DNA from: Sphaerolaimus hirsutus
Taxonomy: Eukaryota; Nematoda; Chromadorea; Monhysterida; Sphaerolaimidae
Assembly (NCBI GenBank): GCA_964036195.1
Contig: OZ038450.1
Location: forward strand, 3,846,701-3,910,700
Reading direction: 5' to 3'
DNA length: 64,000 bases
Shown here: in pieces, positions 1,609 through 61,674 of the stretch
Layout of the letters: the number at the start of each line of letters is the position of its first letter
How positions within the stretch are numbered: the stretch's first letter is position 1
Notes under the pieces: model-generated
Databases searched by the model: none
What the model saw: only the letters and a program-made list of their open reading frames with translations
Told to the model about the DNA's origin: nothing
Program-made: the position numbers and the translations under genes

Positions 1609-1800
1609 GACGTAGCTAGGGTCCACACGGGATCCCGATCCCGAATCCCGCGAAAATTCCGGGATTTCGTGATCCCGATCCCGAAACCTCAATCCCGATC
1701 TTGAAATTTTAAAAAGCCAATCCCGATCCCGAGACTTTGAAAATCCCAATCCCAATCCCGAAAAAAATGCCCCAATCCCGATCCCGGAAAATTTTATGGC
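1609..1800. mobile_element. Element fragment built of GGGATC/CCCGAT words
   Basis: A CAGGGACGTAGCTAGG end at about 1609 leads into roughly 170 bp of repeated CCCGATCCCGAA words. The same word array is found in complete elements at 43151-43364 and in 35839-36579. No matching right end or target duplication was found, so this is probably a broken copy. Confidence 0.5.
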
Positions 1801-1904
1801 TCATGAGCAAACATAAAAGATGCCAGAAATGGCACTTTTACATGATAATTTCATGGGGTATCTTGCAAAAATCTTGCGCGCAGGCACGCATTCCGCACCT
1901 TACA

Positions 1905-10100: not shown

Positions 10101-13100
10101 TGCAGCAAAGCACCGAAACCGAAGCCAAACCTGAACAACATCCAGAAAAATTGGACGCGGGCCAAAAATCACAATCAGGTTCAGAACCAGATGAAAATGT
10201 TTCCGAAAGTGAGGAAAGTGTAGCTGACGATTGGGAGGCGGGGCTTGAGTCTGAATCCGAGAAAGAACCGGATACAGCCCCTCCTGTTGTAGAAGATAAG
10301 TCCAGCAAGGATGATGCTGTTAATGGACACGTTGCTCAGGTGTGTACTTTTTCAGTTTTTCAGCAAGATCGTTTTCGCACTTTCACATCAGACACCTTAG
10401 ACTATTTCAGCAGTATTTTAGCCAGGGTTTTTGAGCGGGGTGGTTGTATGTATACGGAGCTCGGCGAATGGGGGGGGGGGTGCCCCTCCCCCTAAAATTT
10501 CGCCCCTGTAGTAAGGCACTGACACCATGGCGCTTGAGCCATTCATTGGCGCCACGTCATGTGTATGGAGCCATTGACGTTGGTATTGGCGCCGAAGACC
10601 GATGTGTATGTAAATCTTTATGTATTTTGCTTACATATACGGCGATCTTGATACATTGTATGCATTTGGTCAGTATTTGAGGCTGCCGAGACCGGTCTGA
10701 TAAAAGTAAGTGCTGTGTTAAGCAAAAATGCGCGCTTGCGCCCTAATGTTCACACAGCACCCAGTATTTTTACGGCTTTTTACCCCCAATTTTCAATTTC
10801 CAGAAGCCAAAAATTGTGGAAAAACCCGTGGAGCCGCCGTCTGTGGCTCCATTGACGTCCGGTCGACCTGAAGACCCGCCTGAGAAAATTCCGCAGAATG
10901 AAACAAAAGAGGAGGCGAGGATCAGGATTGTTCGCAGAATCAAGGTTTTTTGGGGTATTTTCTGGGGTTACCTGAAGCTATTCACTTTCGTTTCAGCAGC
11001 CTTTACGCGGTTTCGTGTGCCGACAAAAAAGAAGTGAGACGGTTCCATAATTCCATAATAACGTTCGATATCTGCAAGAAATAGCAGTTATTTAGGCGAG
11101 TGTGCTCACTAGTTAAGCGTACACACATGCCGATTTGCAGATAATTTGAACCTGCCGTTCAAGACTTATAGGCATTTGAGGATGAATTTCAGTTGTCGGT
11201 TCGGTTTTTGTTGTGAACCCGAACCGACAACTGAAATTCGTTTTCAAACTTGAATGACATGCACTAATTGTCAGCAAGTTGTGTACACTCAACTAGTGAT
11301 TATACATCACTGTTGCAGATGTGTAACTTGTTTCCGGAATTTGGAACTTTTCACTTTCAATTTTTTTGTCGGTACAAAATGCAGTGTAAATGTGGCTTAA
11401 CCATTTATGTGAAATTTATCATTTAAAGTTTTTAATATTTATACGATAAAATACAAAAAAAACCGCGGATGGAGCGAACGACCCACGTTTAGGTTGTTTT
11501 ATATAGAGAACGCTGTTCAAAATCAGCCAAAACTTGGAGGATACACAGTTAAGTGAATGAGAATATCTTCATTTTCATTACCGGAAGTAAATCACGTAAT
11601 TAGACAGCACTAATATCTAGCCGTAACGTTCTCCGAGACCCTACACACACTGGTTGACAACGACAGCGAATGTCAACCGGTTCCAATCCCAATTCAAAGC
11701 TTGCTGACGAGCCGACAAACGGCGTTCAAATGAGAAAGTGTTGAATCATGTTGCAAATGAAGCTGCAGTGTGGAGTACTGTATTGCGGAATCTGCAATGC
11801 CAAAAATACCACCCTCGATTTATCGTATGGGTGATGCCAAGTCACAAAATTACACTAAAAACTGAGTGTTCCACAACTCACCCAAAATGTGGCCGTTTGG
11901 GTTGCAAACTTCAGCATAGGTGTCCTATGGAGTCTACTGTATTGTGTTAAATTTTCATTGTGATAGCTTAGCTCGAGCTATCGCGTTTTTCCAGCGGTAA
12001 CTGAAGATGCCCACCCTGTACAAGGCGCGCAAGAAGTAAATATATGTGTATACAATAATGCGTAGTGTTACTTGTCAGCAAGCTTTGAATTCGGATCAGG
12101 ACCAGTTGACATTCGGTGTCATTGTCAACTAATGCGTACAAAGCCGAGTACCCCACCCAGTTCTCGCACAATCACACACACACTTTAAACACTATCAACC
12201 CCAACCCCAACCCCAACCCCCCACCCACAACAGTCGCGCGCAAAAGCCGCCCTATCATCGTCGCAATGCAACCCCCGTCTGCGCTCGCCCGTCGTCTGCG
12301 TACTGGGCCACGTGGACACGGGCAAGACCAAGATGTTGGACAGAATCAGGAGGAGCAACGTGCAGGACAACGAGGCGGGCGGCATCACGCAGCAGATCGG
12401 CGCTACTAGGGTGCCCGATTATACGATTTTGGAACAGGGAAAGTGCGTGAAGGATGTGAGTTTGCGGGGCTTGGGGCTACTCGAGATGCTTTTTAAGTGT
12501 CATTATTCAGGGGTCTCCAGGATTTTGACCGTCGCGGGGTTTGGATAGATAGCAAATAGCTCCCCCGGAGGCAGGAACATAGCCAGGATTTTTGAGCGGG
12601 GGGGGGATTGTTTACGGGGGGGCGCCCCCTTAAAATTTAACCCCGGTAATAGAGGAATGGCGCTGGCGCCATTTGTAGGTGTTGCCTGGCGTTGCCATTG
12701 GCGCCAAAAACCGATGTATATGTATGAATTTCACATACATATGCAGCGACGCGGTCTCATTTAGTGCATTTGCACGGCATTTGAGGCCGCCGATACCGGT
12801 GGGCTGAAGTTTACAGTCATATGAAAAGGGTAAATGCGCGCTGGCGCGGTAAGTGTTTACACACCACCCTTGGAAAATGTCCCAAAAATTGCCAGTCCCG
12901 GTAACTTTCTTTCGATTTCCCGGGAAGGGGGGTGGGCGCCCCCCCCGTTAGGGTTCAAACGATATATCGTATCGAATATCGAATATCGGATATCGACCAT
13001 TTTTTAATATCGAATATCGAATATCGATATCGAAAATTTTGAAAAAATATCGAATATCGAATATCGATATCGAAAATTTTGAAAAAATATCGAATATCGA

Positions 13101-16100
13101 TATCGAATATCGACCATTTTTTCGATATATCGAACATGTATTGTGTCCCCAAATTTACTTTTCATTTTCATTTTGAGATGTTTATGGTTGATCTGATGTG
13201 CTTATAGTATTGTATTTGATGAGTAAAAGTACAGTATTTATAATTTCATTGTTGTTGGAGTGCTAAATTTGAAGCCAGAAAACGCTGATATACTTTTTTT
13301 TTGCAACATGCCCTTAAGCAATTAGGTTAGGATGAACTGTAATATCTACCAATTGTTATTTGTCTGATACACTTTGATTCATCATGTTTTTCTTCTATTT
13401 TCTACCATTGAGTGATGTAAAGCTTGTTAAAATCACTTGTACCATTCAAATTTCAGTAAAGAGATGATTAAACATGTGTGCAACCACATGAAAATACAAT
13501 ATGCCACTTGAAATATGCCTTGCTATACCAAAAGCATATCGCAATATCGAATATCGAATATCGACCATTTTTCAATATCGAATATCGAATATCGATATCG
13601 AGGTTCCATATCGTATCGATATCGAATATCGAGTTTCAGAAAAAAATATCGAATATCGAATATCGATATCAAAAATTTTGAAAAAATATCGAATATCGAA
13701 TATCGATATCGAAAAGTCATATCGTTTGAACCCTACCCCCCGTGTCTACGTTTCTGCCGGAGGGATAGATATATGAAAACATTTTTGGGGGGTGTTCACT
13801 GGGTTTCAATATGTAGCTCTTTTCAAGGTGCAGAAAGCAGAAAACAGGGAAAACGGGGAAGATAGGTTAAAAATAGCTGAAAAAAGTTAATAACTCACCG
13901 GAGACCCCTGTCTCTATTGTAATTAACATTTCAATTCCATGCTTTATTTTATAGTGTTTTTGTTTTATGTGTTGTGTTTGTTCGCAGTTCAAACCGGACA
14001 AATTGAAGTTGCCTGGGTTCTTGGTGATCGACACCCCTGGCCACGAGTCTTTCAGGTAGGTTCTAGTTCTTTTGATGCCGTTTTTTCACACAGAGAAGCT
14101 TCTGTGAAGTTTCAAACAAACAGGGGTGGAAAAAAGTTTTAAAAACCGGCTTTTTCAAAAGTTCCCACGTTGTGAGTAGTGCGTCGAAACAATTTAACGG
14201 GAAACGGCAAAAAATTTAAGCTTTCCTGAAAACTAAATGGGAAATTTTGTTTTGCAATTCCGGAAAAAACGAAAAGCAAAAATTCCACGGAAGCGGTAGA
14301 AAATTTTGTCGGAAACTGAAAAAAATTGCAGAAATTTTGCTGGGAACAAAAAATTGCAGAAATTTTGCCGGAAATCGAAAATGAGGCGAAAAAAATCTTC
14401 AGAAGCATTGCTGGCAAAAGATTGAATGAACGGCGTTTTAGACTTATTGTCAGTACTTTTCTATTGCATGCGGCGCGTGAGGTGGGTCAATGCATGTGCA
14501 ACCGACGTCATTATGCGGTTTAGGCGGATTAACGTAAGGCGGCGTTTACACGGATTTCATGGCTACGACAAATTTTTTTTTAAAGTTCCATAACTCCGGA
14601 ATAAAGTTCCATATTCAAGAGTAAAAATGGTTGAGTATATATCATACTTAGTTGTATATGTGTGTGTAAATTCAGTTCAATTGGCTTAGTCATTAAATAG
14701 TTATGGACCTTAAAATTTTCTTTATTCCGCCTGGCCTTCCGACAGCTTTCCGACAAATCTGAAAAAAACTCCATTTTCACGCTGCGACAGTGTGACGATC
14801 ACAGATGGTCGTCACGCACAGCATGCGACAAATCATCAAAATTGTTGATAACTGTCAAAAGCTGTGAACGTGTTTTTTATGTGACGACAATGTGACTTAT
14901 AAAGAAAACAGAAAGTTGAGCCAGAAAAAGAAAAAAATGAGGTTGAAAAACAGAAAATTGAGGCAGAAAATGGAAAAAAGCAGAAAAACCGGGAATTGAG
15001 CCGGAAAATGGAAAAAAGGCAGAAAAACTAAAAATTTGGCCAGAAAACTGAAATGAGCCAGAAAAAGAAAACAGAAAATTTAGTGGCTAGGAAAAATTTC
15101 AACGGCCGGAAAACGGAAAAAATTTGCCTGCGGAAAATGGAAAAGGAAATTTTACATCCTAATCATGACACTTTATTAGCATTCTTACTGTTAACTGTGA
15201 TGCTTTTAAAATTGTTTTTGTATTATTTAGTTGACATTGAGTTGACACAAATTTGCGATGTCAACTAGCGTGTGTGGGCCCAATCAGCCAGCTATCTGTC
15301 TATCTATCTGGGGCGATTTTTTAAAAATTTTGCCCAAATTTTTGCTCAAAATTGATTTTTTTGTACTTTTTTAGTTTTTCACCTTCAAAATCGCTATTTC
15401 ATGTAAAAGCGCCATGGCGCTAGCGCCAAAGCAAAAAGCGCCATGGCGCTTGGCGCTAAAATGCTCTGGCGCCATTGGCGCTTGGCGCCATGGCGCTTTT
15501 GGCGCTTGGCGCTATTTTCCGGTGGCGCCATTGGCGCTTGGCGCGAGCATTTTAAAAAGCGCCAAAAAAGCGCCAGAGAATGAAAAATTTACGCTGCGAT
15601 AACTGACTGCGAATTGCATAAGCTCGATGGCCAATTCATTTTATGGCTATTTTTTATTCTTATGAATGAAGTGTGCATCATACTACCGGTCTAATAAGTC
15701 TTTAAAGTCATGTAAAATGCCCTGTAAAATGTGAAACATATTGAAATTTGACATTCTATGCGGTCTTTCAAATGACATTTTACAGAATATGTTACATGAC
15801 ATTTGACATTTTACAGGTGTATTTTTACAAAACTTTTGGCATTTTACTGGTAATTTGACACTTAACAGAGTTTTACAAGGTCTGGGAGTGTCCCCAGGTG
15901 GAATTACTACCTTTAGTGTTAAGCAAGAAAGCTTTTTGGCTTTCATTAGGTTATTATTACGTTCTGGGAAACGATAGAAGTCATAAGGTGATGAAACTGA
16001 TAGGTGAACTGTGCCTGCGTCATAAAAGGAAAATATTTTGGCGCTGGCGCCATTGGCGCTTGGCGCCATAGCCTCCTGGCGCCATTGGCGCTTGGCGCCA

Positions 16101-19100
16101 TGGTCTGGAAAAGCGCCATGGCGCTTTTGGCGCTTGGCGCTAAAATCCTGGCGCTTTTTACATCACTATTCATGTGTTTCATTGCCTATTTTCAACTAAT
16201 TGTGTACTATATATACTTATATAGTTGTTTTTCACCTACTTTTAGTGATTTTTTCCTTCTATACCTTGGAAGAGCCTATAGGTACATTGCACCCACACAG
16301 GGGTCTCCAAGATTTTGGCCCTCGCGGGGGCTGGATAGATAGCAAATCACTCCTCCAGAGGGTTAGATAGCTGAAAAATTTTCTGGAGGAGGCTTGGGGG
16401 GGCTCCCGGGGGCAAAATATATAGGCTTTTACAAGGTAAAGAAGGCAGAAAGGAGGAAAAATTGCTAATAATAGGTTAAAAGTAGCCAAAAGTAGGTTTA
16501 AAATGGCTTAAAATAGGTATATAACCATGTATTTATATAGCTAAAAACCATGATTTTGAAGGTGAAAAACTATAAAAAGGTGCAAAAATTAGCAATTTTG
16601 AGTGAAGATTGGGGCAAAATTTCTCAAAAATCATTCAAGATAGATAGATAGCTGAGGGATTTGGGGGGGGGGTCTCATGGGGTAGTAGCCAAAAATTTTG
16701 CCTTGGGATAGATAGATAGCTGAGCAGCCTCCGGTATAGATAGATAGCTGGCTGATTTGGGGAGGGGGCAGCCCCCCCAGTCAGTCCCCCCCTAGGAGAC
16801 CCCTGCACCCACACAAAACTGGCTTTTGTTTACTATGATCCTTCACAAAAATTTGTAGTGAAATAATTAGGGTTCAAAACAATATATCGTATAGAATATC
16901 AAATATCAGATATTGACCATTTTTTAATATTGAATATCGATTTCGGAAATTTTGAAAAAATATCGAATATAGAATATCAATATCAAAAATTTTGGCAAAA
17001 TATTGAATATCAATATTGAATAATGACCATTCTTTTGATATATCGAACCTGTGTTTTGTCCCTAAATTAAATTATCATTTTCATTTTGAAAAATTTATGA
17101 TTGATTTGATGTGCTGATGAGTAAAAGTACAGTATTTATAATGTTATTTTTGTTGGAGTGCTAAATTTGAAGCCAGAAAATGCTGATATGCTATTTTTTG
17201 CAACATGCCCTTAAGCAATTAGGTTATAAGTATGAACTGTAATATCTACAAATATCTCAATTGTTATTTGTCTGATACACTTTGATTCATCATGTTTTTC
17301 ATCCATGTTCTACTTTTGAGTGAGTAAACCTTGTTAAAATCACTTGTACCATTCACATTTCAGTAAAAAGATGATTAACCATGTGTGGAACCACATGAAA
17401 TACAATATGCCACTTGAAATATCCTTGCTATACCAGAAGCAAATCGCAATATCAAATATTAAAATTATTGAATATCAACCATTTTTAATTTCAAATATTG
17501 AATATCGATATCAAGGTTCCAATATCATATTGATATTGAATATCGAGTGTCAGAAAAAAATATTGAATATTGAATATCAATATTGAAAAGTCATATTGTT
17601 CAAACCCTAGAAATAATGCCCCTAGAAATAATGATTTTAACAGGGTTCACAACAGTCAAAATCAGAAAATGGAAGAAAAACATGATGAATCAAATTGTAC
17701 CAGGAAAACAATAATTGGTATCAATATAAAACATCCCAGTCCATACTTATAACAGTTGCTTAATGGTATTTTGTAAGAAAAGCAGCATAAATATCAACAC
17801 TTTCTGGTAGGTAGGAAACCAAACTAAATACAAGAAATGTTGAATAAGCACTCCAACAAAAATGAAATTGTAAATACTTAACTTTTACTCCTCAACAAAA
17901 ATCTTATACACACATCCTACATATCTCAAAATGAAAATAAAAAGATAATTTGGGGGCACAAAACAGGTTCGATATATCAGAAAAATGGTCGATATTTGAT
18001 ATCGATAGTAAAAAATGGTCGGTATTCGATATTGATATTTGAAAATGGTCAATATTCAATATTGATATTCTATATTTTTTCAAAATTTTCGATGTTGATA
18101 TTTGATATGAAAAAACAGTCGATATCCGATATTTGATACAATATATTGTCTGAACCCTAACGGTAGATGCCACTGCATAAAAAAATCGATGATGGGTCAC
18201 ATAACAGGGGGGTCTGACATGCAAAGTGTATTTTGGATGGCATTCAGTCCCAGGGAAAGTAGTACTGCAGTGTGCAATGAACTGCAACCAACCTAATCCA
18301 ATTTTCCAGGGCATTTTGAATAACTTGCATGCCAATTTGACATTGGGACTTTTACAGAGTCTGGGGTTTACCAAAATACTGCATTTAAAGGTTTAAATCC
18401 AAAAAATTCCAAAAATTTCCAAATTCAAAAAGTTGCCAAAAACTCAAAAAGTGACAAAAAAATGCAAAAATCAGAAATTTGAAAACTATTTAGGGGAAAA
18501 ATTTGGAAATTTAAGTCATTTTTGAAAAAAAAAACAAAAAAAAACAACAAAAAAAATATAAATACTGTTTTCTGGAGGGGTTGCCATCATTAGCACCAGC
18601 AAGTCGCCTGCTGTTACGGTACCCTTGGGTGCCAGTGTCACTTTTTGGGAATGGCACTGTTGCCCCTGTAGTGTGATTAGGGTGTCAACCATTTTTTTTT
18701 GTTTCTGCTTTCTGCTGGCAAATTTGTCTCCATTTCCGTTTACTGGCTGCTTAAATTTTTTTCCATTTCCATTTTTCCGGCACATCTTCTGTTTTCCGGC
18801 ACATCTTCTGTTTTCTGGCTAAATTTTCAGTTGTCTTTCTAAATTTAATTCATTTTCATTTTCCAGCTCAATTTACTGTTTTCTGTTTCAGTCAAACTGG
18901 TAAACATGCACACAGGTTCTCAATTATGTGAATTTTTCCTATATCTAGCAAGATTTCCGCAAATTTTGTTATTTCTGGATCAATTTTTGCAATTTTTTTC
19001 TGTTTCCAGCAAAATTCCAGCATTTTTTTCCATTTCTGGCATAATTTCAGGAAATTTTTCTATTTCCGTTTTCCAGCCTTTCATTTAGCCATTTTCTGGC

Positions 19101-22100
19101 AAGTGCAAAATTTTGTCTGTTTCTGTTTTCTGCCAAAAAGTTTTTGTTGACACCCTAAGTGTGATGCCCTTGTTGGCTAGTGCCGCAAGGTGCCAGGTGT
19201 CTTTTCTAAGGAGTTGCATAGGTGCCTGTGTGGTGCGTAATGATGGCAATCCCTCCGGAAAAAAGTTTTTAAATTTTTAACTTTTTTCTAAATCAACTTT
19301 TCAAATTTTCAAAAATTCAAAAAAATTTCACCTAAAAAGTTTTCACATTTTTAATGTTTTTAATCATTCAATCTCTTCGAATTAAAAAAATTAAATTTAA
19401 AGCTTTAAATGCAGTATTTAGGTAGTTTTATGTTCAGATAACTGTCTAAACCTTATATTCATAGTTATGTGAACCACTTTATTGGTTCATTCACTCATCC
19501 ATCCAATACAAGCAAAGCAATGAACAGACATTTTCAAAATAGACACAAACCATCCACAAAACGCACACACTTTTTTCAATTCACTCAAATCATGCATAGT
19601 TGTTCAAAAGTATTTGTTTACTCGAAAAGTACGTATACTTGAGTACTGAGTAAATATGTTTACGTATACTTTGAAAAAAGTAGCTGTACTTGCTTTTATG
19701 TATACTTTTTGAAAGTACTCGAGTACAGAATACGTATTTCAGATAGGCTCTTTAAAGGCTTTTTAAGGCATAGATGGGAAAAAGGGGGAGAAAAAGCGAA
19801 AAACAGGGAAAAAACTGCTCAAAATAGGCACATAACACATGTACTTGTGAATTTGAAGGTCAAAATGGTCAAAAGGTATGAAAATGAGTGATTGTGAGTA
19901 ACAATTGGGCCAAAATTTTCCAAAAATACTCAAAAATACATTTTCTGGAGGGAAAGGTACTTTACTCATGTTTACTCATGAGTAAAAGTAAAAAAATTTA
20001 CTTGGCATTTTCTGTACTAAGGGGGGGAGTAAAAAATATATACTTTACGTTCATATACTTTAAAAATAGTTTGGTACTTTTAACAACTCTGGAATCATGA
20101 CTAGTGATGAAAAAGTGGCAAGCATTTCCCACCAAGCATTAAAAGTGCTGTGGCACGTTTTGCTCACCATGGCACTTTTCCATCACTAATCACTCCTATT
20201 CTTCTCTCAATCTTTTCACTTTTAAAAATGTTCAGTTCCCAGGGCCAGTGTAAACCGACTTTGAAAATGCCAAATGTCATGCAAAGTGTCCAAAGTTATG
20301 TAGATGCCCTGTAAAATTTTTATCATTTTTTAAGCTGTACAAACTGTATTTGTTCAAAGTGTCTTTGACATTTCATACCAATTCATCTCGCAGACGTCAT
20401 TTTGAGGCTTTTTGACCCAGTTTCACGTGTTTTTACAGGCTCAGATACACCACAAATCAATTGTGTTGACTGATTTAGCACATTGAACTTTTGACTACAT
20501 TGACTGGCCTTCAATTCCCTGAAAGATTCAGACAGTATTTTCAAATTTTTGAGTTTTGAAGAAAAGAAACATCAGTTTTAAGTGTTTTTTTCAACGTGTG
20601 CTCAAACAATTTTAAAGTCAAAAAAATTTAAAATTTGGAAACATTTTCAAATTTTCGTATCGTTTTTTACCATCGTTAGTGGTGCCATATTTTTCAGTGC
20701 CTTTAACATCGCCAATTAGGTATAGCATGACCATCTTTCAATTTTTCAGAAACTTAGCCAAATCAGCATGAGAAAATCTAGCATCACTGAACTGATGCCA
20801 AAATTGAATCCGACATGTCCTCCCAATCATTTTAAGTGTAGAATGGTCTAAATAAGTTGAAAAATGATTGAGATATGATAAATTTGATTTCTTTGTCGGA
20901 GACATGTAAATCAGCCTCGCTAGCGAGGCGTTCCGACAACTTTCCAACAAATTGCCATTTTATTTACAGATGCGTCTCAAAATCGTCGTCACAAGCTGTG
21001 AACGTGCTCTGCTTGTGACGACATTCCACAGGTGCCATCACCCAGTGGCATCAGAAGTCCTTGCAAAGTGCAAGAAATTCATGGCACATTCAAATCAATA
21101 TGTTGTGCCAACAATACCGTGGGTTTTTTAGAGCAAAAAATGGCTTTTTGAGTGCATCGTATCAAAATTTATGTTTGTCGGAGGCCACGAGGCCAATTTT
21201 TGTCGGAATTAACGAGGCCGATTTGTCGTCACATACCTAAAATTTGCAATTTTCATCGAAAAAAGGTCTGTGACGACACAATTTTTTTGTCGTCACACGA
21301 AATCCGTGTAAACACGGCCTAACGTTTGTAGATAAAAAATGAAATAGAGACAGAAATGATCGAGTGCATGATCACATGCCACACAATGCGCCTTGATAAA
21401 ACTACGCAAAGTTTTTACCTGCATATGAATGACAGCCAGTTGCAAATAACTTTTCGAAATTAATTCTGCAAATTAATTAATTCTGCAACGTTCTGCAAAT
21501 CATTGATAATTCCCCCGCCCACGGCTGAGAAGTTCATTTGTAACATCACAATTAAATCACTGCATTGTATTATATTTTACTTTACATATGAATATTTGTG
21601 CTAACGGCGCATGTAGCACAGCCATTGACCCAAGCCACGCGCCGCATGCACAAATGAACAATGTGGGGAAAACAGCCTCATTTTTATAGAAATGTTCAAT
21701 CAAAATTCATTAGTGGTGTCTCTCGCAATACTGAAATCGTCAACGAAAACCAGGGGTTAGCCGCGCACCGTGTAAAATAGGGAATAAAAATGAAGATATT
21801 AATGGGCGCTTCTCATTTTATGAGATTTGAAAAATTTCTGTGACGTTTTACATAGCGTTTTTCATGGTGCGTGACTCTCCCCTGGCTCCACAGCAGGGGT
21901 CTCCTAGGGGGGGGGCTGGGGGGGGGGCTGCCCCCCCCCCAAATCGGCCAGCTATCTATCTATCCCAGAGGCCGCTCAGCTATCTAACTATCCCGAGGCC
22001 AAATTTTTGGCTACTACCCCAAAAGACCCCCCCCAAATCGCTCAGCTATCTATCTATCTGGAGTGGTTTTTGAGAAATTTTGCCCCAATTTTCACTCAAA

Positions 22101-25100: not shown

Positions 25101-28100
25101 TAGGCGACACGATTGTCGTTGCCGGATACGATGGACCCATTGTGACCACAATCAGGGAGCTCCTTATGCCGCACCCTTTGAAAGAGCTGAGAGTCAAGGT
25201 TTGTGGAGGGGTCATTTTAGTGTGATGAATACAATCTTTGGCTTTTGACTAGGGTTGGAAAAAAAACGTTTTTTTTTAACTCGATGTTTTTTTTAAAAAA
25301 AAAACGTTTTTTTTATTATAAAAAAACGTTTTTTTTATTATAAAAAAACGTTTTTTTTAAAAGCTCCCAGATATGACCTAGTGTCAACATATATAGGTAT
25401 ATCAGACACTGGCAATACTCTGTGATGTTAAATATGACCATATAATGGCTGTGGAGCCATGGGATAGCATTATAAGTGGTGATTTGTGTCGAAAATATCC
25501 ATTTTTCGTCGACATATCGTTCGTATATCGCCTTATAGTCGAATGTTCGTGACTTCAGGTAAAGTTTGGCACGGAATGGTGATCAAACAAGGTTATAAAA
25601 GGAGGTTGTTACTTTGGGAGTGAAGTTACACACTGTGGAGGTACATGGAAGCACATTACCTCAATATTATATATTACAGCAACATATGTCGGCTTATTCA
25701 CCCATGGTAGCACATAGAAATGGATGTTTTGATACTAAAAATGCAACAAAACCAATGAAAACAACCACCAATGTCAATTTGTGTGTGAAATTGCGCGCTT
25801 GCGCGCAAAAATTTTGCAAAATACCTAGTGCTTAGTACTAAAAATTTCGGCCGATGTTTTTTTAAAAAAACAAACATTTCGGACGTCATGTTTTTTTAAA
25901 AAAAAAAACGTTGTTTTTTTAAAAAAAACGTTTTAAAAAAAACATCGGCCAACCCTACTTTTGACAGCTCAATTGCTATTTTTGCCGAAAAGGCGAGATT
26001 TTGAATCATTCATCATATTTTCCAGTCACCCCTCCCCTTTTTTCCCCATCCCCATTTTCCAGTTTTTTTATTATTTCCGAATCGGGGATTTTGAACGAAA
26101 ATACAGCAGAAAAGATTTTGAACAAAAATACAGCAGAGAAGAAAATACGGTCGACATCAATGGGGGGGAACCACCCCCCCCCCCCCAAACCGCATAGCAT
26201 CATCTACCCCGGAGGCGAATTCTTGGCACACCCTTCATATGTGCTTGTATACCTATTTTGTTCTATTTTTCACCTATTTCTAGCTACTTTTTCTCCCTTT
26301 TCTTCCTTCTATACCTCGAAAATGTCTATACATTGAACGCCCGCGACCCCCCCCCCAATCCCAAAGCTAAGCACAATCTTTCTATCCCTTCGGACAAGCG
26401 ATTTGCTATCTATCCAACCCCCAGAGGGTCAAAATCTATAATACCCCTGGTGGACTTACAGCTAACGAATTTTGATAAGCTATAATTATAAAAGTGGAGA
26501 TTTCAAATTTCTCAATCTAAGTAAAATTGTCACTTCCAAAGTCAAATTTCTCCATTTTTCCGGGATTGGTATCGGGATTGCGGAAATTTTAGTCTGATTT
26601 GAATTCTTTGAATCGGGACTGAACCCTGCCCCGTGCGTTCTCTCAGAACCAGTACGAGCACCACAAGGAAGTGCAGGGCGCGCAGGGCATCAAGCTGTTG
26701 GCAAAGGACCTGGACAAGGCGCTTGCTGGCACCCCCCTCTCTGTCGCCATCAAAGAGGATGAGGTGATATGGGCGTGGCTTATATTTGCATTTGGGGCTA
26801 TTTTTGCCTTCGTTTGTTTCCCTGTTCCAGGGGCCAAATCCAATTTGAAATTAATGTATTTTGCGCAATTTCACGCGCTTACTCGCGTCCCGTTTCCTTT
26901 TCGTGCGCTTAATAGACATTCTAGGTAAATTTAGCGCCGGGAACGCGTTTCTGACAATTTCTCGTGATTTTTATATCTGACTTGAAACAACAGGGGCGAA
27001 TTCCGCAAAAAGTGAAGTGAAAAACGAAGTAAAATGTGTAGGGAAAGGGAAGTGAAATGAGAAGTGAAAAAAATTCAAAATAAAAACGTAAAGGATGAAT
27101 GCTGACTTAGAAAGCATTGTTTCTGATGGCGGTTATGATGATTTAGTGGGAAACGTGCCGATTTTTCGCTTGCGTCGGAACTTTCGAATTGAAAATGTTA
27201 CTCTATCCAAAAAACGACACTATAAAATTTCAGATCGCTTTTCACTTTTTGCAGAGGTGGCACTAGATGCGTTTTCATCAATAATTCATCCATTTTTAGG
27301 TGGAAATTCTGTGCGAGGACGTGGACAACTACGTGCGTAAGGCGCTGGAAACATTCCGCCTTAAATTGAGCCCTATGGGTGTATATGTGCAAGCTTCCAC
27401 GCTTGGGTCATTGGAGGCACTTTTGGAGTTTCTTAGGGTGCAGAAAATACCCGTTGGTCGTTTTTCTTTTTGATGTTTTTCAATTTTTTTTTAATTTTTA
27501 TCACATTTTTCACAGTATTGCGGTATCAACATCGGACCGGTGCACAAAAAGGATGTTATGAAAGCGTCTACTATGCTGGAACACGATGCGCAGTCGGTGG
27601 CGACCTTCTTTTTTATTTGGATTTTTTTATGCGTTGATAAATTCGGTATTTTGAATTAAATGTACGCTAAGCTCTGTAATACTAACTTGTTATAGTCCAC
27701 TCGACTATCTTTGCACATGCAAATTTATTTGACAAGAATTCTTAATTAGAATAAGACGCGAGCTTTCCACCCCCATCATCTCCGCATTTCTTTTTAGCAG
27801 ATACACATTTCCAATTCTACTAGATATATTCAAAATACCCTGAACCCCCGTTAAATTTGATTGCTGTGATTTTTGAATTAGCGTGATTACCGTATTTCCT
27901 CGAAATACCCCCAGGGGGTTTATTATTTCGCTAACAAATTGACAATGGGGTCTTATTCGAGGGAGGTCTTTATTATTTCGTCAGAAATTTTCGTCAAGGT
28001 GCATAGTAAAAATAGGCTTTTCCACACCTAAAACTGGAGGTAAACGTGACAAAACACGACATATTTGTACATATATAGGTATACATCTACACAAACTAGT

Positions 28101-29269: not shown

Positions 29270-29336
<67 letters not shown>

Positions 29337-35421: not shown

Positions 35422-38400
35422 GTGAGTTTTGGGTTTTTTTGTACTTATGTGATGGAATGGTGCCCTTTTAAACGTTGCCAAATGTGTAGGCGTTATTGTA
35501 AATACCTAGGTAGCTCAATTTTTGGAAACAAATATCTCTGGCCCTTCAAAAGCGCCGTGGTGTGGTCATTTTTGTGTTGTGCCCTTTGCACTTCTTTTTT
35601 TGGATGCCTGCCAACTTTCTAGCACTATTCCATCACTGACTATTCTACTGGTCTGGTGCAACTCTCATACCTTGTAAAATGCCATGCAAAGTGTCAAAAG
35701 TCATGTGAAATACCATGAAAAATTGCAAATCGCTTGGCTTTTTCGAGGGCATTTTACATGACTTTTGACACTTGCATTGACATTCGGCATTCTACAAAGT
35801 CTGGGAGTGTTCCTGGTATGGTTCCAAGTAATCAGAACTAGGGTTCAAACAGGATTCCGTTCCCAGATCCTGATCCCGAATCCTGAGAATTTTCGGGATT
35901 TTGTGGTCCCGATCCTGAAACCTCAATCCCGATCCCGAAATCCCAAGAAAGGCAATCCCGATCCATAGTTGTTAAAACGTATTTACGTTTACTCGACAAA
36001 TACGGATACTCGAGTACTGCATAAATACGTTTACGTTTCCTCCCGAAAAAATTACGGTACTCACTTACTCGAGTACAGAAAACGTATTTCAAACAGGTTT
36101 TTTAATAGGCTTTTTCAAGGCAGAAAGGAACCAAAGGGAGAGAAAACCTTAAAATATGGTCAAAAAAATATCCAAAATAGCATAAAAATAGGCAAAAACA
36201 CATTAACTAGTGAATTTGATGGTGAAAAAGTTCAAAAAGTAGTGATTCTGAGCAAAATTGAAGCAAAATTTCTCAAAAATACGCACTTTTATGTTTTCCG
36301 GGGACAAAAGTAATTTACTCACGTTTTCTCATGAGTAAAAGTAAAAAATACTTTACGTTTTCTGTACGCACGTGTGAGTAAAAAATAAATACTTTACGTT
36401 TACGTTTACTTTTGAAAAAGTTCGGTACTTTCAACAACTGTCCCGATCCCGATCCCGAAAGTTTTCAAAACCCAATCCCGACCCGATCCAGTGACTCCAA
36501 TCCCGAACCCGTAAAAGTTAGTGGAAATAATAAAAAAGTAAAAAAATGAAACTTTTGCACTAAAAAATGTGAACCCCATCAGCTATTTTATGCNNNNNNN
36601 NNNNNNNNNNNNNNNNNNNNNNNNNNNNNNNNNNNNNNNNNNNNNNNNNNNNNNNNNNNNNNNNNNNNNNNNNNNNNNNNNNNNNNNNNNNNNNNNNNNN
36701 NNNNNNNNNNNNNNNNNNNNNNNNNNNNNNNNNNNNNNNNNNNNNNNNNNNNNNNNNNNNNNNNNNNNNNNNNNNNNNNNNNNNNNNNNNNNNATAGCAC
36801 AGCTCACGCAGCTGTGATAAACTTGAGTGAATTTTTTTCCTTTTTATCTCAGATAGTTGAAGGGTGTGAAACTTTTTTTACATGGATGTATAGGTCTAAC
36901 ACTGTAATCTGCCTTGAATACTATTGAATAAGTAAAAGTCTGGGTTCCATGTGAGACATTTCTCACAATGCAGATGTAATGATATATTGCTTTTGTGCAT
37001 TTAACAGTCAATACATGTAACTCTTGTGATGTAATACAAATAGTTTCTTTATTCAGGTGGGATATGTAACCACAGCAAAGTGTGTTATCAGTGAAGTGTA
37101 TGCCATTTTCTAAGCAATGATACATTACTTTTGTGCATCCAATATATATTAATGTCCATTTGAGAGACGCACTTCATTTCCATTTGAGAGACACACTTCA
37201 TCTCTATTTGCTGTGGAGGCAGCGTCCACTTTTTGTTTGGCGTTAGCCATTTTTTTATTGATATCCACTTATTGTTTGTATTCTATATTTTCATGTAGGT
37301 AAAATATCAGGTAAAAAATATGGTTTTTTGACATTCCTTGTAAAATGTTGTTAAATGTAGTATGCGATAGTGAGATTGTGAATAAAATTTGGACCAGTCC
37401 TGTGTCGGAAATGTGTGAGTTTCAGCTGTAGATCATTAGTTTACAGTTGAAGTTTACAGTTTCCCCCTGAAAAGCAAGGCGACACAGGCGGCATTTTCGT
37501 AAAGGGAATGAAAAAACCTAAAAGCGAATGTAACTATACAAAAACTTATCTGAGCTGATGTCAGTTGTTCTAATTTGAGCTCTAGAAAGCAACAACACAT
37601 CAGTTAAAGTTTTCAATTGAACGCTGTTCTTATCTCTAACGATTGAAGTATATTTAAAATGAACATTCCTCAATTTCTATAGGATGACAATGTTCGCACA
37701 AAAACAACCTCTCCGTATAAAAACGAGCCACTGGAAAAAAAATCTACGGTCAAAGCGAATGAGAACCGAAAATTCCGACGTGTGACAAATTTTCCACATA
37801 ATCCGACTACATAAACCCAAAAACACATCGAAACAATGAACCAAGGCCAGGAACCCCCGCCTGGCCAAATTTATCCCCAATAGAAGCCCCCAAAAATGTT
37901 CACCAGCACCGTTTTTTAAGGCGCCGCCGCCAATGTTCATTTAGGGGCCCAGCCCCTTACTAGCTGCTCGATTTGCGTCAGCTACTGCGGTGATTGAAGA
38001 GAGAAATCATGGATTGTTGCAGTCTACTGCGTATGACGACAGTGTACTCGTGTTTTCTGGTAATGCCCTGGCGAATAGCATTGACCAGTCTGTGAGTTTT
38101 CGGGGGGGGGGGGGGGGTTCTTGTTTTGGTAATGTTTTATACCTGAGGGGCGTTCACACTAGGGTTGGGACGATATGACTTTTCGATATCGATATTCGAT
38201 ATTCGATATTTTTTTCTGAAACTCGATATTCGATATCGATACGATATGGACCCTCGATATCGATATTCGATATTCGATATTAAAAATGCTCGATATTCGA
38301 TATCGATATTTCGATATTTTCGATATTTCGATATTTTGCTTTTGGTATAGCAGGGCATATCTCATTTGGCATATTGCATTTCCATTTGATCACAAACCCA

Positions 38401-41400
38401 ACAGATCATCTCTACTGAAAAGTAGATTATACAAATTTAAATGGCACACAATGATCAAAATGAGAAAATGATTTTAAAATGTGACAGATGTGGTAAGGAA
38501 AAGGTGCCAGCATCATTATAGGTGCCATGCCATGGTGCCATTGATGTTTCCATGGTGTAAGTAGTTATTAAACATACATATACTCTTATGTGAACATCTG
38601 AGAGAGCATTTGCACAAGATTTGATGCTGCCGCAAGTGCTGAAACAAAAATACCTTTCATGTGAGAACAAAGTGCGCGCTTGCGCGCAAAATTTGGTCAA
38701 ATTGCTCATGAAATCACCCTCGTATAGTGCCATTCCTGGCTTATTTGAAGTCAGGCCCAGGGAGTATAGAATATCGAAAATATCGAAAAAATGGTCGATA
38801 TTCGATATCGATATTCGATATTTTTCCAAAATTTTCGATATCGATATTCGATATTCGATATGAAAAAATAGTCGATATCCGATATTCGATATTCGATACG
38901 ATATATCGTCCCAACCCTAGTTCACACGGCTTTTCTGCGATGGAACCGATTTTTTGTCGTCAAACTAAATTTGTGACGACAAAACAATTTTCATGTGTGA
39001 CGACAACGCAGTCGCACTGAACTCGACGACAAAAATCTTGTCCAGTCACAGTTTGTGTGACGACATTCTGTCGCATGCACTTATCGTCACACTGTCGTTG
39101 AAGCAAAAAATGTGGCGACAATTTTTTTCTCCAATTTATTGAACAGACGACTGAAATTCATTTATTCAATTGTCATATATCCATAACTCTTGACCGAAAG
39201 ACAGCGATAATGTAAATTGGCATGTCTGTACGCTTAACCAGGGCCAGGGACGTATCCAGGATTTTTGAGCGGGGGGGGCTGCTTGTTTACGGCGGCCGCC
39301 GAGGGGGGGGGGGCTCAGCCCCCCCCCCCCTAAAATTTTCGCTAAATAGTGGCGGAATGGCGCTATGGCGCTGGCGCCATTAATAGGCGCCACGCCATGG
39401 CGCTATTGGCGTTGGCGTCAGCGCCATGGAACGCTGTATATGTATGTAAATATACATACAAAACAGCAAAAAGCACAACATTGAGTGTATTTACAACGAT
39501 TTGCGGCCACATGGAGCAAATCCGATGATAATACCTTTATGTATGGTGAAGAATGCGCGCTTGCGCGCAAAAATTTTTACGCTGACGTTGAAAAAGTCGC
39601 ATTTTCCGGTCACTTTCTGGTCTCGCCCCGGGAGGGGGGGGGCTGCAGCCCGGATTTCATTTCATTATCATCGGATTTGCTCCATGTGGCCACAAATCGT
39701 TATAAATACACTCAATGTTGTGTTTTTTTGCTGTTCTGTATAGGGTTGGAAAAAAAACGTTTTTTTTTAACTCGATGTTTTTTTTTAAAAAAAAACGTTT
39801 TTTTTTTTAAAAAAACGTTTTTTTTTAAAAGCTCCCAGATATGACCTAGTGTCAACATATATAGGTATATCAGACACTGGCAATACTCTGTGATGTTAAA
39901 TATGACCATATAATGGCTGTGGAGCCATGGGATAGCATTATAAGTGGTGATTTGTGTCAAAAATATCCATTTTTCGTCGACATATCGTTCGTATATCGCC
40001 TTATAGTCGAATGTTCGTGACTTCAGGTAAAGTTTGGCATGGAATGGTGATCAAACAAGGTTATAAAAGGAGGTTGTTACTTTGGGAGTGAAGTTACACA
40101 CTGTGGAGGTACATGGAAGCACATTACCTCAATATTATATATTACAGCAACATATGTCGGCTTATTCACCCATGGTAGCACATAGAAATGGATGTTTTGA
40201 TACTAAAAATGCAACAAAACCAATGAAAACAACCACCAATGTCAATTTGTGTGTGAAATTGCGCGCTTGCGCGCAAAAATTTTGCAAAATACCTAGTGCT
40301 TAGTACTAAAAATTTCGGCCGATGTTTTTTTTAAAAAAAAAACATTTCGGACGTCATGTTTTTTTTTAAAAAAAACGTTTTTTTTTTAAAAAAAACGTTT
40401 AAAAAAAAACATCGGCCAACCCTAGTTCTGTATGTATATTTACATACATATACAGCATTCCATGGCGCTGACGCTAACGCCAATGGCGCCATGGCATGGC
40501 GCCTACTAATGGCGCCAGCGCCATGGTGCCATTCCGCCACTTTGTGGCTAAAATTTTAGGGGGGGGCTGAGCCCCCCCCCCCCCTCGCCGGCCTCCGTAA
40601 ACAAGCAGCCCCCCCGCTCAAAAGTCCTGGATACGTCCCTGCGCTTAACTAATAATTATACTTTATTTAGGAATTGTGGAACCTTTTTCACTCATTTTTT
40701 TGTATAATTGCTATAATTTCTATTTCTCAAAAATCGCTCTAGAGAGCTAGATAGCTGGCCAATTTGGGGATCGGAGTTTCAGGGGATAGTAGCCAAAATT
40801 TGCCTCCGGGATAGATAGATATGGGTAGAGATATAGCTGGGCGGTTTGGGGGAGGACCCCCCATTGGAGACCCCTGTATAGCCACTATCCAGTGTTCGCA
40901 GCCGCATAAAGCTACAGCATTATTCCTTGCTGTTTTTCTCAATGTTTTTTTTCTCGCAGGATTCTCGTGGCGCGCTCAAGTCCTCTTCTGTCCACGCAAA
41001 TGGCGCAGCTGATTCGGTCCGTGTTTTTACCGTTTTTTTCATGCATTTCCCAAAAGGTTTCTGTTTTTGGTTTGACCTTTGGCCGGTTTCTGGGACTTCT
41101 TATCTGGTCATTGTATTTTGTAGCATGAAGCTAACACAATTACATGATGTTAACGATCACAATTCACAAACATATCTAAATGTACAACACAAGTCATAAA
41201 CCAAAGTCTGCCGTGTCTAACTAAATAGATCCTTTTTTCAAAATCAGTCAGTTTTTCAAAGTATTTCAGTCGTTTTGGTGGGTATGTATTTGGCACAAAA
41301 TTGTTTATGGAGAATGCCATCATCTGTGAATGATTTTTAAAATGAAATATGGGGCTTCAAACTGACGGGGAGTATAATTGAGTTTTTGACTTTGAAATGT

Positions 41401-44400
41401 TGAGTTTATTACCCGAATTTTCATACTTTTATCATTTGGCAGCTCGCCAGTGACATGTCATCCAGCGCGGCTGCACCGCGCAACGAAAGTGAATCCGGTT
41501 ACTGCACCGGACCGAATGTTGTTAGCACCGACTGCGTTTTCCAGGCGCCGTGTTCTTCTAATTCTGGTCGGTTGATACTTTTTCATTGCATAAAAGTATC
41601 GGTTTAAAACAATGTAATTAAAAACGTGTTGGCTGCTTTAACCCGGTGTTTCTGTCATGACAAAAATTTCTGTTTTGTTACTTTTTTTGGTGGGGGGGGG
41701 GTAAAAAGAAATACTTGTTGTGTGTGTGAACTGTGATGCCTCCACCGATCGTATTTTTATCATCCTCACTTTCTAGCACAAACACTTTAATTTCATCTCA
41801 CGTAACACGCTCACTAGAACTTGTTTTCTGGGAATTTGTCCTAAGCGGTCGCGCAGCGCAATTTTCTATTTTCATGACAAAAAGATGGTTGTAAACCCGA
41901 TCGAATTGTTGTCACAAAGGAACGTAAACGCCGCATTAGATATGACGAATTTCATTCTTTCATATGCGAAATAACCGGGTGTGTCATTGAAATGTACAGT
42001 ATGAAATGAACTGAATGAAAAATACTGAAATGTCGATGATGTTATTCACGCGAGAACAAATTTACAAAACATTAATTGGTGATCTCGCAGGCAGCGATGA
42101 AGTAATCAAAAGCTCCAAGACCACACCGCTGGGCGGTATTCAGGAACAGCGTGGGAATAGCGCCGCCGATGGTCGAGTCATGTTTCCGGTATTTTGAAAT
42201 GCTGTAGAATGTTTTAGATTGTAAAAATTTTAATAGTAAAATTAAATAGTAAAATTTTGCGTTCAAGCGCGCAGTTTCACATGGAGAATAACTGGCTCGC
42301 TCGTTTTCATGGCTTTTGATACAACTGTGGCGGTGCAGTATCGCTTTCTCTATGCATGTTTCGATGCTTGCGTTGTTTTAAATAAAAATGGTTTAAAAAA
42401 GCTGGCATCCCTGATCCCTATGTACGTCTACTTTGGAATTGGGGCGCCATGAAGGCGGCAGTAAGAATTATGGAATCAGTCAATAACCCAACCCACTTAC
42501 ACTCATCCATATGCGATCACCCCCACTCCCAGCCAGAGAGCCAAGCTCCGTGCGACAGCGGCAAACACCGCACGCCTATTTCCACCGGCGGCAGCAGTTG
42601 CAGCGGGTCGCGCCACGTGCCCCTGCAGCACTGGCAGCGCACGCCGCTCTCTTCGCAGTCTGCTGGCAGCGGGCCAAGTGCGCGCGTGGTCAACCCGTTT
42701 GAATCCAAGCTGATCGAGAGCCTTCATGGTACCATTTTCAGTCCATCCGTGTTTCACACGGTGATCAGTCCCGGCGCTGATGCGGTGCGTTTGGGTTGTT
42801 TTGAATATTTCTTGCTCTAAAATCGGCGATTCAAAGAGGAATGAAACATGAAACTTTTCTGAAATATAGATATCTGGCGTTATTTTTTATTGTAAAAACG
42901 CCACGCCACACAGCATGTGTTGAAAAAAGTTTGCTCTCCATTTCCCAGAAATTTGTATTTTTTATCTTTCAGCCAAGCAGCGGTGCCGCCGGTACGGCGG
43001 GGGCGGAGTCTGGCGATTTCCGATGGTCGATTGAGCACGTGGCCGAGTTGCAGCCAGCGGATATCGATGAAAGTCGCCTTGGACATCAAATTGAACACGG
43101 GTGGGTCGCTTGCAGTTTCCATACTGTTGAAATGCCTTTCGACTTATTCCTAGGGTTCAAACGGGATTGACTTTTCGGGATCGGGATTGCCTTTCTGAGA
43201 TATCGGGATTGGCTTTTTGAGATTTCGGGATCGGGATCGTGATTGGCTTTTTGAGATTTCGGAATCGGGATCGGGATTGGCTTTTTGAGATTTCGGGTCG
43301 GGATCGGGACTGCAAAATCCCGAAATTTCTCGGGATTCGGGATCGGGATCCCGTTTGAACCTTACTTATTCCTATGAGTTTGAACTTTGCTGTTAAACAA
43401 TAAAAGTAGACAAGAAGTCAGCATTTTTCTCAGACACGACCCTCACCTGGAAAACCTGGCACATCGCCAACTGGAGCATTTTTGGACGTGGGTTGACAGC
43501 CACGGCAAAGTGGCTCCCTCTCCGGCTGAAAGTGTCCGCCGAAATAGGCTGATTGAAAGGATGTTCCGTGAGTTCAAGATGTAAAAACAACTTTTTATTG
43601 TTTTCATAGTGCAACGGTGCGGTAGATGGTTGGTTTTTTGGAAAAACTATTAAAATCAATGTTTGAATCTAATTGTGAAAAACTCACCAGTTCAAACGCA
43701 TTTGAGTTCACCATGATCATTAAATATCGAACTCTGTCAACGGCAGCAAAATCAAGTGCATTCAAAGCTGATGTATCAGTTTCCGAAATTTAGGCCGTAA
43801 ACTAGGCTGCATGAAGGCATTGCGCTCGCGTTCAATTCTCCCCGTGGTGCCATGACTTGCAAAATGACCAGACCCGTGATAGCGGTCCAAATCGTAACCC
43901 TTTGCAACTAGGGTTCAAACGGGACTTGTTTTTCGGACCGGGACTGGGACCGAAAATTTTCTAATGTCGGGACCGGGACCGGGATTGGCTTTTTCCAATT
44001 GTCGGGACCGGGGCCGGGATTGTCTTTTTCCAATTGTCGGGACCGGGACCAGGACTGGGGTGTCGGGACCGGGACCGCCCCATGTACCGAACCATGTACC
44101 GGGACCGCGGTCCCGTTTGAACCTCATTTCCAACCCCCCCCCCCCCAACTACAGCGGGCCTCAGTCCGAGCAGCTCGCCAGTGTCTTCCAGCTGCGCCAA
44201 CGGCAGCGCCACTGGTCGGCCAGTTGGCGCCAGACCGGCTCCTGGTGCCGCCCGCGACGCCTATGCTCAGACTCAGCTCACTTTCCCACCGCATGTTGAC
44301 TTGTTTCAGCTGTTGGGTGAGTTTTTGGGGGTTTTGGTAACTTTGAGTGGTCGATGGGGGGTTGAAAGTGGCGGTAAAACAGTGAGAAAAATATATACTA

Positions 44401-50096: not shown

Positions 50097-50791
50097 TAGG
50101 GATGGCAAGCGCTTTTTTCAAGTACTTTTAAAAAAAAGCCGCTTTTTTTAAAAAAAAGCGCAAGGGTCCCAGCGCTTTTTTTTAAAAAAGCGCTGGCAAA
50201 ATTTTTTGTACTCATGCACTAGGTATTTTGCAAAAAAAATTTTGCGCGCAAGCGCATAATTTCACATGCAAATTGCCATTGGTGGTTGTTTTCATTGGTT
50301 TTGTAGCATGGCATTGCTTCTATTCCTGCATGGTATCATGTAATAATAAGTTGAGGAGATATGTCAGTGTAGTAAATAATATCCAGCCAATGTGCTTCCA
50401 CTTTTCTACAGTGTGAAACATCACTGTCATGTATCAGCCATCTTTTATAGCCAAATTTAAGCACTATCTAACTTCACTTGCAGTCAAGAAACATTCAAAA
50501 ACGGCAATATACATAATTAGTCGACATAAAATTGGATTTTTTTGGCAGAAATCAGCACTTATAATGCCATCAGATGATTACATAGCCATTCTGTGGTTAT
50601 ATATCATCACAAGTACTGCCACTTGTCTGATATACCTATATATATATTAACTCAGGACCATATTTGGGAGCTTTTTAGGCAACGTCTTGACAATTTTTGA
50701 AAAAAAGCGAAAAAAGTGAGTTTTTTTTAAAAAAGCGCTTTTTTTATAAAAAAGCGGGGCCGTTAACAAAAAGCGCTTTTTTCTATCCCTA
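50097..50791 (-). mobile_element. hAT-like element, TAGGGATGG ends, AGCGCTTTTTT words
   Basis: Perfect target duplication TGTGAGAC (50089-50096 and 50792-50799). Ends TAGGGATGGCAAGCGC and TTTTTCTATCCCTA. The core is homologous, in reverse, to that of the AACGTTTT-word elements (GGTTGTTTTCATTGGTTTTG, GCGCGCAAGCGC), but the arm word is different. Confidence 0.92.
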
Positions 50792-61030: not shown

Positions 61031-61674
61031 TAGGGATGGATAAAAAGCGCTTTTTTTAACAGCCCCGCTTTTTAAAAAAAGCGGTTTTTAAAAAAAAACG
61101 CGCTTTTTTGATTTTTTTCAAAAAATGTCAAGATATTCCCTAGAAAGCTCCCAAATATGGTTTTAAGTCAATATATACAGGTAAATTTATATATTACAAG
61201 TGGCAGTACTTGTGATGATATATAGCTATAGAATGGCTGTGGAGCCATGGGATAGCGTTATAGGTGGGATTTTTATGCCAAAAAAATCCACTCATTATGT
61301 TGACTCGTTATGTAAATTGCTGTTTGTCAAATGGTCATGAGTTCACGTGAAGTTAGGATGAAATAATGCTTAAAAAAGTTATAAGAGAAGGCTAATACAT
61401 TGAGACTGATGTTTCCCACTGTAGAAGTATGTGGAAGCACATTGGCTGGATATTTTATATTACACTAACTCATCACGGCTTTTTATTATATGAAAGCATG
61501 CAGGAATAGAAGCAAAGACGCTAAAAATGCACAAAACCAATGAAAACAACCACCAGTGGTAATGTGCATGTGAAATTGCGCGCTTGCGCGCAAAAAAAAT
61601 TACAAAATACCTAGTGTATAGGTACAAAAAATTTTGCCAGCGCTCTTTTTTTAAAAAAGCGCTGCCCATCCCTA
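61031..61674 (+). mobile_element. hAT-like element, TAGGGATGG ends, AGCGCTTTTTT words
   Basis: Perfect target duplication GACGTACA (61023-61030 and 61675-61682). The core keeps GGCTGTGGAGCCATGGGATA and AAAACAACCACCA as in the AACGTTTT-word copies, while the arms read AAAAAGCGCTTTTTTT. It is itself inside a larger, decayed CAGTGGCGTAGCC-type element (about 60160-61852, right end GGCTACGCCACTG). Confidence 0.92.

Follow-up and report, generated by a model that had tools for sequence, protein, structure and literature searches.

The N-terminal DNA-binding domain of hAT transposases is a BED finger, and family-specific subterminal words as well as diverse hAT specificities are already known. In the available text on Ac/Ds of maize, 8-bp duplications flank short termini, one hexamer is repeated many times in each end of about 200 bp, and non-autonomous copies are alike in little besides their ends and hexamers, in all of which Ac/Ds resembles the elements described here; its hexamers (AAACGG) are bound by the Ac transposase, and three of them can suffice (PMC3260210). 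Unlike the present elements, Ac/Ds has in that text one family word, with none swapped between related Ds classes, and its arms are less dense in words (PMC3260210). Hermes, as far as the available part of its description goes, has a BED domain that binds short subterminal repeats, and its ends are asymmetric in a way that matters, with a quasi-palindromic pair of sites directly after the left terminus and the first site of the other end inside the terminus, an arrangement like ours; the Hermes site, AAG(T/C), is in contrast a single word that is scattered and not packed into dense arrays (PMC10368747). Among hAT-derived BED-type proteins, preferences for CGG, GCGC or AT-rich motifs are described, with four hAT proteins found to match the subterminal regions of their own elements (PMC8097297). 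The hAT-19-type CGG-binding proteins are comparable in that BED-type specificities differ and the motifs match the subterminal regions of the proteins' own transposons, but that comparison crosses species and concerns domesticated genes, and the portion of the source available contains no swapped-arm series on one backbone (PMC8097297). Galileo, of the P superfamily, also has ends that are long and repetitive inside and offer many sites to its transposase, several THAP sites in its termini among them, but in the excerpted account it belongs to another superfamily with another finger type (PMC3688188), and bacterial REP sequences, likewise in excerpt, are repeat families paired with their own transposases, but these systems are bacterial, use single-stranded tyrosine transposases and have no arms (PMC2817692). 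In the open-access papers covered by the search, nothing was found that describes words swapped in concert on a shared backbone, and no match to the terminal sequences was found in paper texts.

The genome of Sphaerolaimus hirsutus carries thousands of short hAT-type elements in which both arms are built of one six-letter word. The window considered here is a stretch of 64,000 bases (C1:3846701-3910700), and the genome searched comprised 348,482,957 bases in 762 contigs. A preliminary description of the window had reported five elements of a shared plan, and all five are present at their places with 8-bp duplications that agree at 8/8 positions in four and at 7/8 in one; they are short non-autonomous hAT-type transposons. 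These elements and other copies in the window are as follows, with end A and end B defined below.

12949..13735, minus strand: CGATAT-class element of 787 bp, end A right, duplication CCCCCCGT (8/8), 45 words
13262..13335, plus strand: fossil of a hAT transposase C-terminus within the CGATAT element at 12949, 12 residues and then 11 in another frame
16868..17609, minus strand: old CGATAT-class element whose words have decayed, duplication GAAATAAT (8/8), 7 intact words, fossil transposase C-terminus near 17160-17240
38160..38919, plus strand: CGATAT-class element of 760 bp with terminus TAGGGTTGGGACG, duplication GTTCACAC (8/8), 39 words
43151..43364, plus strand: CGGGAT-class element of 214 bp, end A left and end B right, duplication CTTATTCC (8/8), 14 CGGGAT/ATCCCG words
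43909..44126, plus strand: CGGGAC-class element of 218 bp, end A left, duplication TTTGCAAC/TTTCCAAC (7/8), 11 CGGGAC/GTCCCG words and 2 CGGGAT
17632..18159, no strand assigned: another CGATAT-class copy, decayed, with a terminus at 18147-18159 and the opposite one not found
1617..1892, minus strand: incomplete CGGGAT-class copy, TAGGGTCCACACGGGATCCCG at left
35839..36571, minus strand: CGGGAT-class copy, interrupted by a nested element at 35965-36441
35965..36441, no strand assigned: the nested element, termini ATAGTTGTTAAAACGTATTT / ACAGTTGTTGAAAGTACCGA, AAACGTA- and ACTCGAGTAC-rich arms, duplication CCCGATCC
18678..19157, minus strand: TAGGGTGTCAAC-terminated element whose CGGAAA/CAGAAA arms have decayed, related to elements in which a hAT C-terminal exon is retained, duplication AGTGTGAT

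Six further window elements have 8-bp duplications and no word arms (905-1351, 1905-2338, 2487-2983, 9338-9756, 16298-16805 and 21894-22410); their termini are CAGTGGCGTAGCC, CAGGG(A/C)CGTA or CAGGGGTCTCC, and C runs or AGATAG dominate in them. Low-complexity and CAGGG-type repeats from general scans were examined and set aside. The window also contains a minisatellite of AATGTCAAGT units (53086-53743), a tRNA on the minus strand (29266-29339, 68.4 bits) and an open frame on the plus strand (12189-12548), which we take to resemble translation factor eIF5B.

The exact terminus TAGGGTTCAAACG occurs 7752+7762 = 15,514 times genome-wide, compared with 5+3 for the same sequence backwards. It is followed by CGGGAT in 8,581 exact instances, by CGATAT in 3,241 and by CGGGAC in 2,549, the three words together accounting for 14,371/15,514 (93%). 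Close reading was carried out on 328 kb of contig C1, made up of the window and 39 stretches that were picked around the first-listed ends and are therefore not a random sample of the genome; here the hexamer after 83 exact termini was CGGGAT in 41, CGATAT in 21, CGGGAC in 18 and another in 3. The sample contained 41 duplication-flanked pairs of ends, from which 3 were removed, one for its different word class, one as the host of a nested element and one as a duplicate. The 38 paired elements that remain are 100-1357 bp long, and 37 of them have the same word at end A and end B, a number that reached at most 28 under label permutation (100,000 trials); in the sole mismatched pair, at C1:1029263, the right end is occupied by another element. 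Within 100 bases of either end, own words number 235, 244 and 91 in the paired CGATAT, CGGGAT and CGGGAC elements, against 1.3, 1.8 and 1.6 after mononucleotide shuffling of the same bases, and foreign words number 0, 12 and 1, with GTCCCG/CGGGAC making up 11/12 of those in the CGGGAT-class ends. GTCCCG, the other class's word, stands once at a fixed place, CAGTCCCG, in every intact end B of a CGGGAT element. The suggestion that the arms might be ordinary microsatellites unrelated to the element ends does not hold, as the word arrays are bounded by paired termini with duplications. Left unclassified as mixed or decayed were C1:957703, 1051178, 1564871, 1558116 and 2295017; the first three have TAGGGTTCAAACGGGATC ends with words that are mixed or few, and are either decayed copies or intermediate lineages.

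Terminal inverted repeats of hAT transposons are short and start with (T/C)A(A/G)NG, and their target duplications follow the consensus nTnnnnAn. Most copies have TAGGG at both ends, in agreement with this repeat consensus; a single end is mutated in each of the elements at 43151 (TAAGG) and 43909 (TGAGG), and TGAGG lies outside the consensus. Exact 8-bp duplications, as in hAT, flank 33/39 counted pairs, with T at position 2 in 20/33 and A at position 7 in 13/33 as raw counts without a background control, and the subterminal repeats are also those of a hAT element. Being short, present as 15,514 exact ends in 348 Mb and without an intact transposase gene, the elements have the properties of MITEs. 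Long matches within a class have a median identity of 88% for CGGGAT (36 pairs, top 99.7%), 81% for CGATAT (24 pairs) and 77% for CGGGAC (7 pairs), and recent movement is indicated by two CGGGAT copies that differ in their duplications but are otherwise 99.7% identical. One CGATAT element is nested within a CGGGAT element (C1:2513987/2514312) and another within a TTGATT element (C1:1446246).

Directly next to the terminus stands the same hexamer that is most frequent in the arm, and the words are therefore better phased as CGATAT, CGGGAT and CGGGAC than as GATATC, GGGATC and GGACCG, the phasing first proposed; that one word is used consistently throughout each element, including the bases adjacent to the terminus, was correctly described. 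The two ends had been described as mirror images, which they are not: end A consists of the terminus, the word, a CTTTTCG/TTTTTCG joint and the arm, whereas in end B the terminus is followed by a palindrome (CGATATATCG, CGGGATCCCG or CGGGACCGCGGTCCCG) and the arm, and the joint is absent. Since the elements at 38160 and C1:2514312 have a different terminus, TAGGGTTGGGACG, on the same CGATAT arms, terminus and word can vary separately.

Between the CGGGAT and CGGGAC classes, the arms can be aligned at both ends over about 165-187 bp, spacers included. In a comparison of one element pair per end, base 6 of the word was the same at 2/35 sites and different at 33/35, nearly all T to C; bases 1-5 were the same at 158/170 positions (93%), and spacers were the same at 75/108 and different at 33/108. 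For two distant pairs within the CGGGAT class, the corresponding identities were 13/14 and 12/15 at base 6, 53/72 and 53/71 at bases 1-5, and 42/51 and 42/53 in spacers. Because words within a class are no better kept than spacers, the 93% seen between classes is no proof of selection on each word, and because arrays of unequal length align loosely, the strong statement concerns base 6. The proposal made from the window alone, that a word is exchanged over both arms of related elements, is supported. Between CGATAT and CGGGAT arms, alignment stops about 52 bases in from end A, no DNA homology was found on comparison of the CGATAT core with the CGGGAT core, and the cores of the three classes are mostly unalike as DNA.

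A similar exchange is found on a second frame, which has TAGGGTTGG or TAGGGATGG termini and a complex core. The arms of 13 such elements consist of AAACGTTT in 7, TTGATT in 3, AAGCGC in 2 and a kind of its own in 1 (C1:1444656). Three AAACGTTT and two AAGCGC elements are located in the window.

433..1556, plus strand: second-frame element (TAGGGTTGG), word AAACGTTT, host of a further element at 905-1351, duplication ACCCTGCA
25250..25957, plus strand: second-frame element, word AAACGTTT, duplication CTTTTGAC
39741..40424, plus strand: second-frame element, word AAACGTTT, duplication GTTCTGTA
50097..50791, minus strand: second-frame element, word AAGCGC, core homologous to that of the AAACGTTT elements, duplication TGTGAGAC
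61031..61674, plus strand: second-frame element, word AAGCGC, duplication GACGTACA

Across words, the second-frame cores are 68-81% alike and homologous over 350-630 bp. The arms are full of their own word, and the only foreign word counted was one AATCA/TGATT in the element at window position 61031; one AAACGTTT element has zero exact AACGTT in one arm. In a tree of the 13 cores, each word occupies one side of a branch (AAACGTTT 100/100, AAGCGC 100/99, TTGATT 94/86), and the labels require 3 changes for 4 groups, the minimum, a value as low as this being reached in 0/200 shuffles; for AAGCGC alone, with its two rows, 45/500 shuffles were equally low. The prospect that word classes would prove to have unrelated termini and cores fails most clearly here, because three words sit on one homologous core.

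Further words occur on further frames, with exact or nearly exact duplications: GGCGCC arms on TAGTGATG elements (C1:958624, duplication 7/8; C1:1561309, 8/8), ACTCGA arms on a TAGGGCTCGAA element (C1:1546727), CGGAAA arms on the TAGGGTGTCAAC frame, and AAACGTA/ACTCGAGT arms on the window element at 35965. Nine words are listed (CGATAT, CGGGAT, CGGGAC, AAACGTTT, TTGATT, AAGCGC, CGGAAA, ACTCGA and GGCGCC) on about six terminal frames, and CG is present in all of them except TTGATT. GGCGCC-rich stretches in the window (8940-9012, 15438-15544, 16038-16101 and 39380-40509) look like parts of TAGTGATG elements, and a AAACGTTT element lies inside such a stretch near 39400-40500.

The link to hAT transposases comes from their C-terminal dimerisation domain. 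The Dimer_Tnp_hAT profile has 28 matches in this genome and 0 in 14 control genomes. In the family with the TAGGGTGTCAAC terminus and CGGAAA arms, a C-terminal exon is kept in 5/5 checked copies and is assigned to Dimer_Tnp_hAT by Pfam (2.4e-7). A fossil of this C-terminus is clear in 8/13 sampled CGATAT elements, including those at window positions 12949 and 16868; most of these fossils are interrupted where the reading frame shifts in a run of T, and among the best 150 of 1,438 candidates scored the fossil is unbroken at at least 6 places. The CGATAT fossil is 88-93% identical to three Dimer_Tnp_hAT matches (C2:29257544, C6:16776156 and C6:16777007). CGGGAC elements contain a different fossil, found in 1/8 sampled and searched for in the genome among the best 150 of 244 candidates, and none was found among 17 sampled CGGGAT elements. 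The two fossils, 27 and 23 residues long, had no Pfam match by themselves, and together with the CGGAAA exon they form a gap-free alignment up to a shared stop, with 0/20,000 shuffles scoring as high in each of the three peptide comparisons. The domain is thus recognised by identity in CGATAT, by homology in CGGGAC and by Pfam in CGGAAA, and these fossils, together with the 8-bp duplications, bear out the hAT affinity first suggested for the elements.

In the listed part of C1, CGATAT fossils lie inside CGATAT pairs in 3/3 cases and in CGGGAC pairs in 0/3, and CGGGAC fossils lie inside CGGGAC pairs in 6/6 and in CGATAT pairs in 0/6. Each fossil being confined to its own class, word and transposase lineage travel together. 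The earlier proposal that words co-evolve with the transposase therefore stands at the C-terminus for the CGATAT and CGGGAC classes, where fossils are class-specific, and does not extend to CGGGAT, whose sampled elements yielded no fossil. No zf-BED match was found near the 28 hAT matches, out of 8 zf-BED matches genome-wide.

Two candidates for an autonomous element were rejected. In the CGGAAA family, the copy at C1:11855867-11856995 (1129 bp, duplication GCCACACC, 8/8) has 16 and 17 words in its ends and none in the middle, and is a deleted copy. Downstream of C4:15146606 there is a TAGGGTGTCAAC end with 17 CGGAAA words; downstream of C3:12442421 words are few and no terminus lies within the 291 bases taken. 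For the hAT family at C15:19125109, word arms are absent from about 1.25 kb downstream. The second candidate, C1:1038292-1044856, is a tandem duplication that includes flanking sequence, with the same duplication, ATTATCTG, at three ends; it is a large CGATAT element that, as judged by eye, has a piece of another transposase inside.

We consider it probable that the words are the sites of the zinc finger at the N terminus of the transposase, and that lineages have split by changing word and protein together. The words are read as transposase sites because their layout and range of motifs match those of Hermes, Ac and hAT-derived BED-type proteins, and by the same analogy the transposase would bind them. 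The elements would be non-autonomous descendants of hAT transposons, and the word would be the recognition site of the BED finger, with a single site where the terminus ends on its inner side, two sites forming a palindrome straight after the end-B terminus, and, in both arms, site arrays that may raise local occupancy. Each word class would have been moved by its own transposase lineage, and a change of specificity in a lineage would have led, through selection for matching copies, to replacement of the word through both arms, assisted as word arrays inside them were gained and lost. The exchange of words thus probably records changed recognition by the transposase. We infer, in addition, that residues of the BED finger differ by class, that the classes do not mobilise one another, and that the arms were rewritten in this manner.

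A reading in which the arrays are neutral is unlikely, though of the alternatives it fares best. On this view the word plays no part in recognition: slippage, unequal exchange or gap repair would have carried a mutant word along the arms of one founder copy, which would then have multiplied. Array length does vary among copies of a class (2, 3 or 4 ATCCCG units ahead of GGATCCCGTG in end B), the arms contain higher-order units of 34-40 bp, and words within a class are no better kept than the spacers, all as neutral arrays would have it. Against it, the words next to the terminus, which lie outside the arrays, have changed too, at both ends (14,371/15,514 carry one of the three words), the two ends agree in 37/38 pairs, the spacers can still be aligned where base 6 has changed at 33/35 sites, similar swaps occur in the second frame, and word class goes with transposase lineage. 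Arm regrowth by slippage, which had been offered as an alternative to co-evolution, does occur, as the varying array lengths attest, and since these vary between copies, array turnover is likely to be the means by which arms followed a change of specificity; slippage may in this way have carried out the swap, so that the two options are not mutually exclusive.

It is considerably less probable that the word classes are separate old hAT families whose TAGGGTT-type terminus converged or was exchanged, with no swap on a common backbone. The mostly unalike cores of CGATAT, CGGGAT and CGGGAC and the other terminus on the CGATAT arms of 38160 would fit such an origin, but CGGGAT and CGGGAC arms align at both ends with their spacers, the CGATAT and CGGGAC fossils are homologous, and the second frame, with its core homologous across words, weakens it further. 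Least credible is that the words are sites of a host factor (a BED-type, other DNA-binding or methylation-sensitive protein). In its favour, 8/9 listed words contain CpG, and a zf-BED cluster at C1:7466186-7488779 points to one or more host genes in which several BED fingers are present; against it, no tie between those genes and the elements was found, the word classes follow the transposase lineages, and known hAT subterminal repeats bind transposase. That cluster comprises 6 of the genome's 8 zf-BED matches, on one strand and about 3-6 kb apart, and a CGATAT element lies about 200 bases past the last of them.

The transposase-site reading bears on the open question of how joint change comes about in a DNA-binding protein and the dozens of sites it binds, and one genome here offers several stages of such change: sister families one word base apart, three words on one core, and thousands of copies. 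Whether hAT elements radiate through a recognition code, the finger and nearly all of its 10-70 sites changing together until families stop mobilising one another, seems to us evenly balanced. The nine words on about six frames would constitute natural finger-site pairs, in which single-step swaps such as CGGGAT/CGGGAC would be readable like a code table. If the transposases do bind these words, such pairs would become available for BED domains, MITEs could be matched with their transposases, and the exchange of words would be a mechanism that makes transposon families mutually independent.
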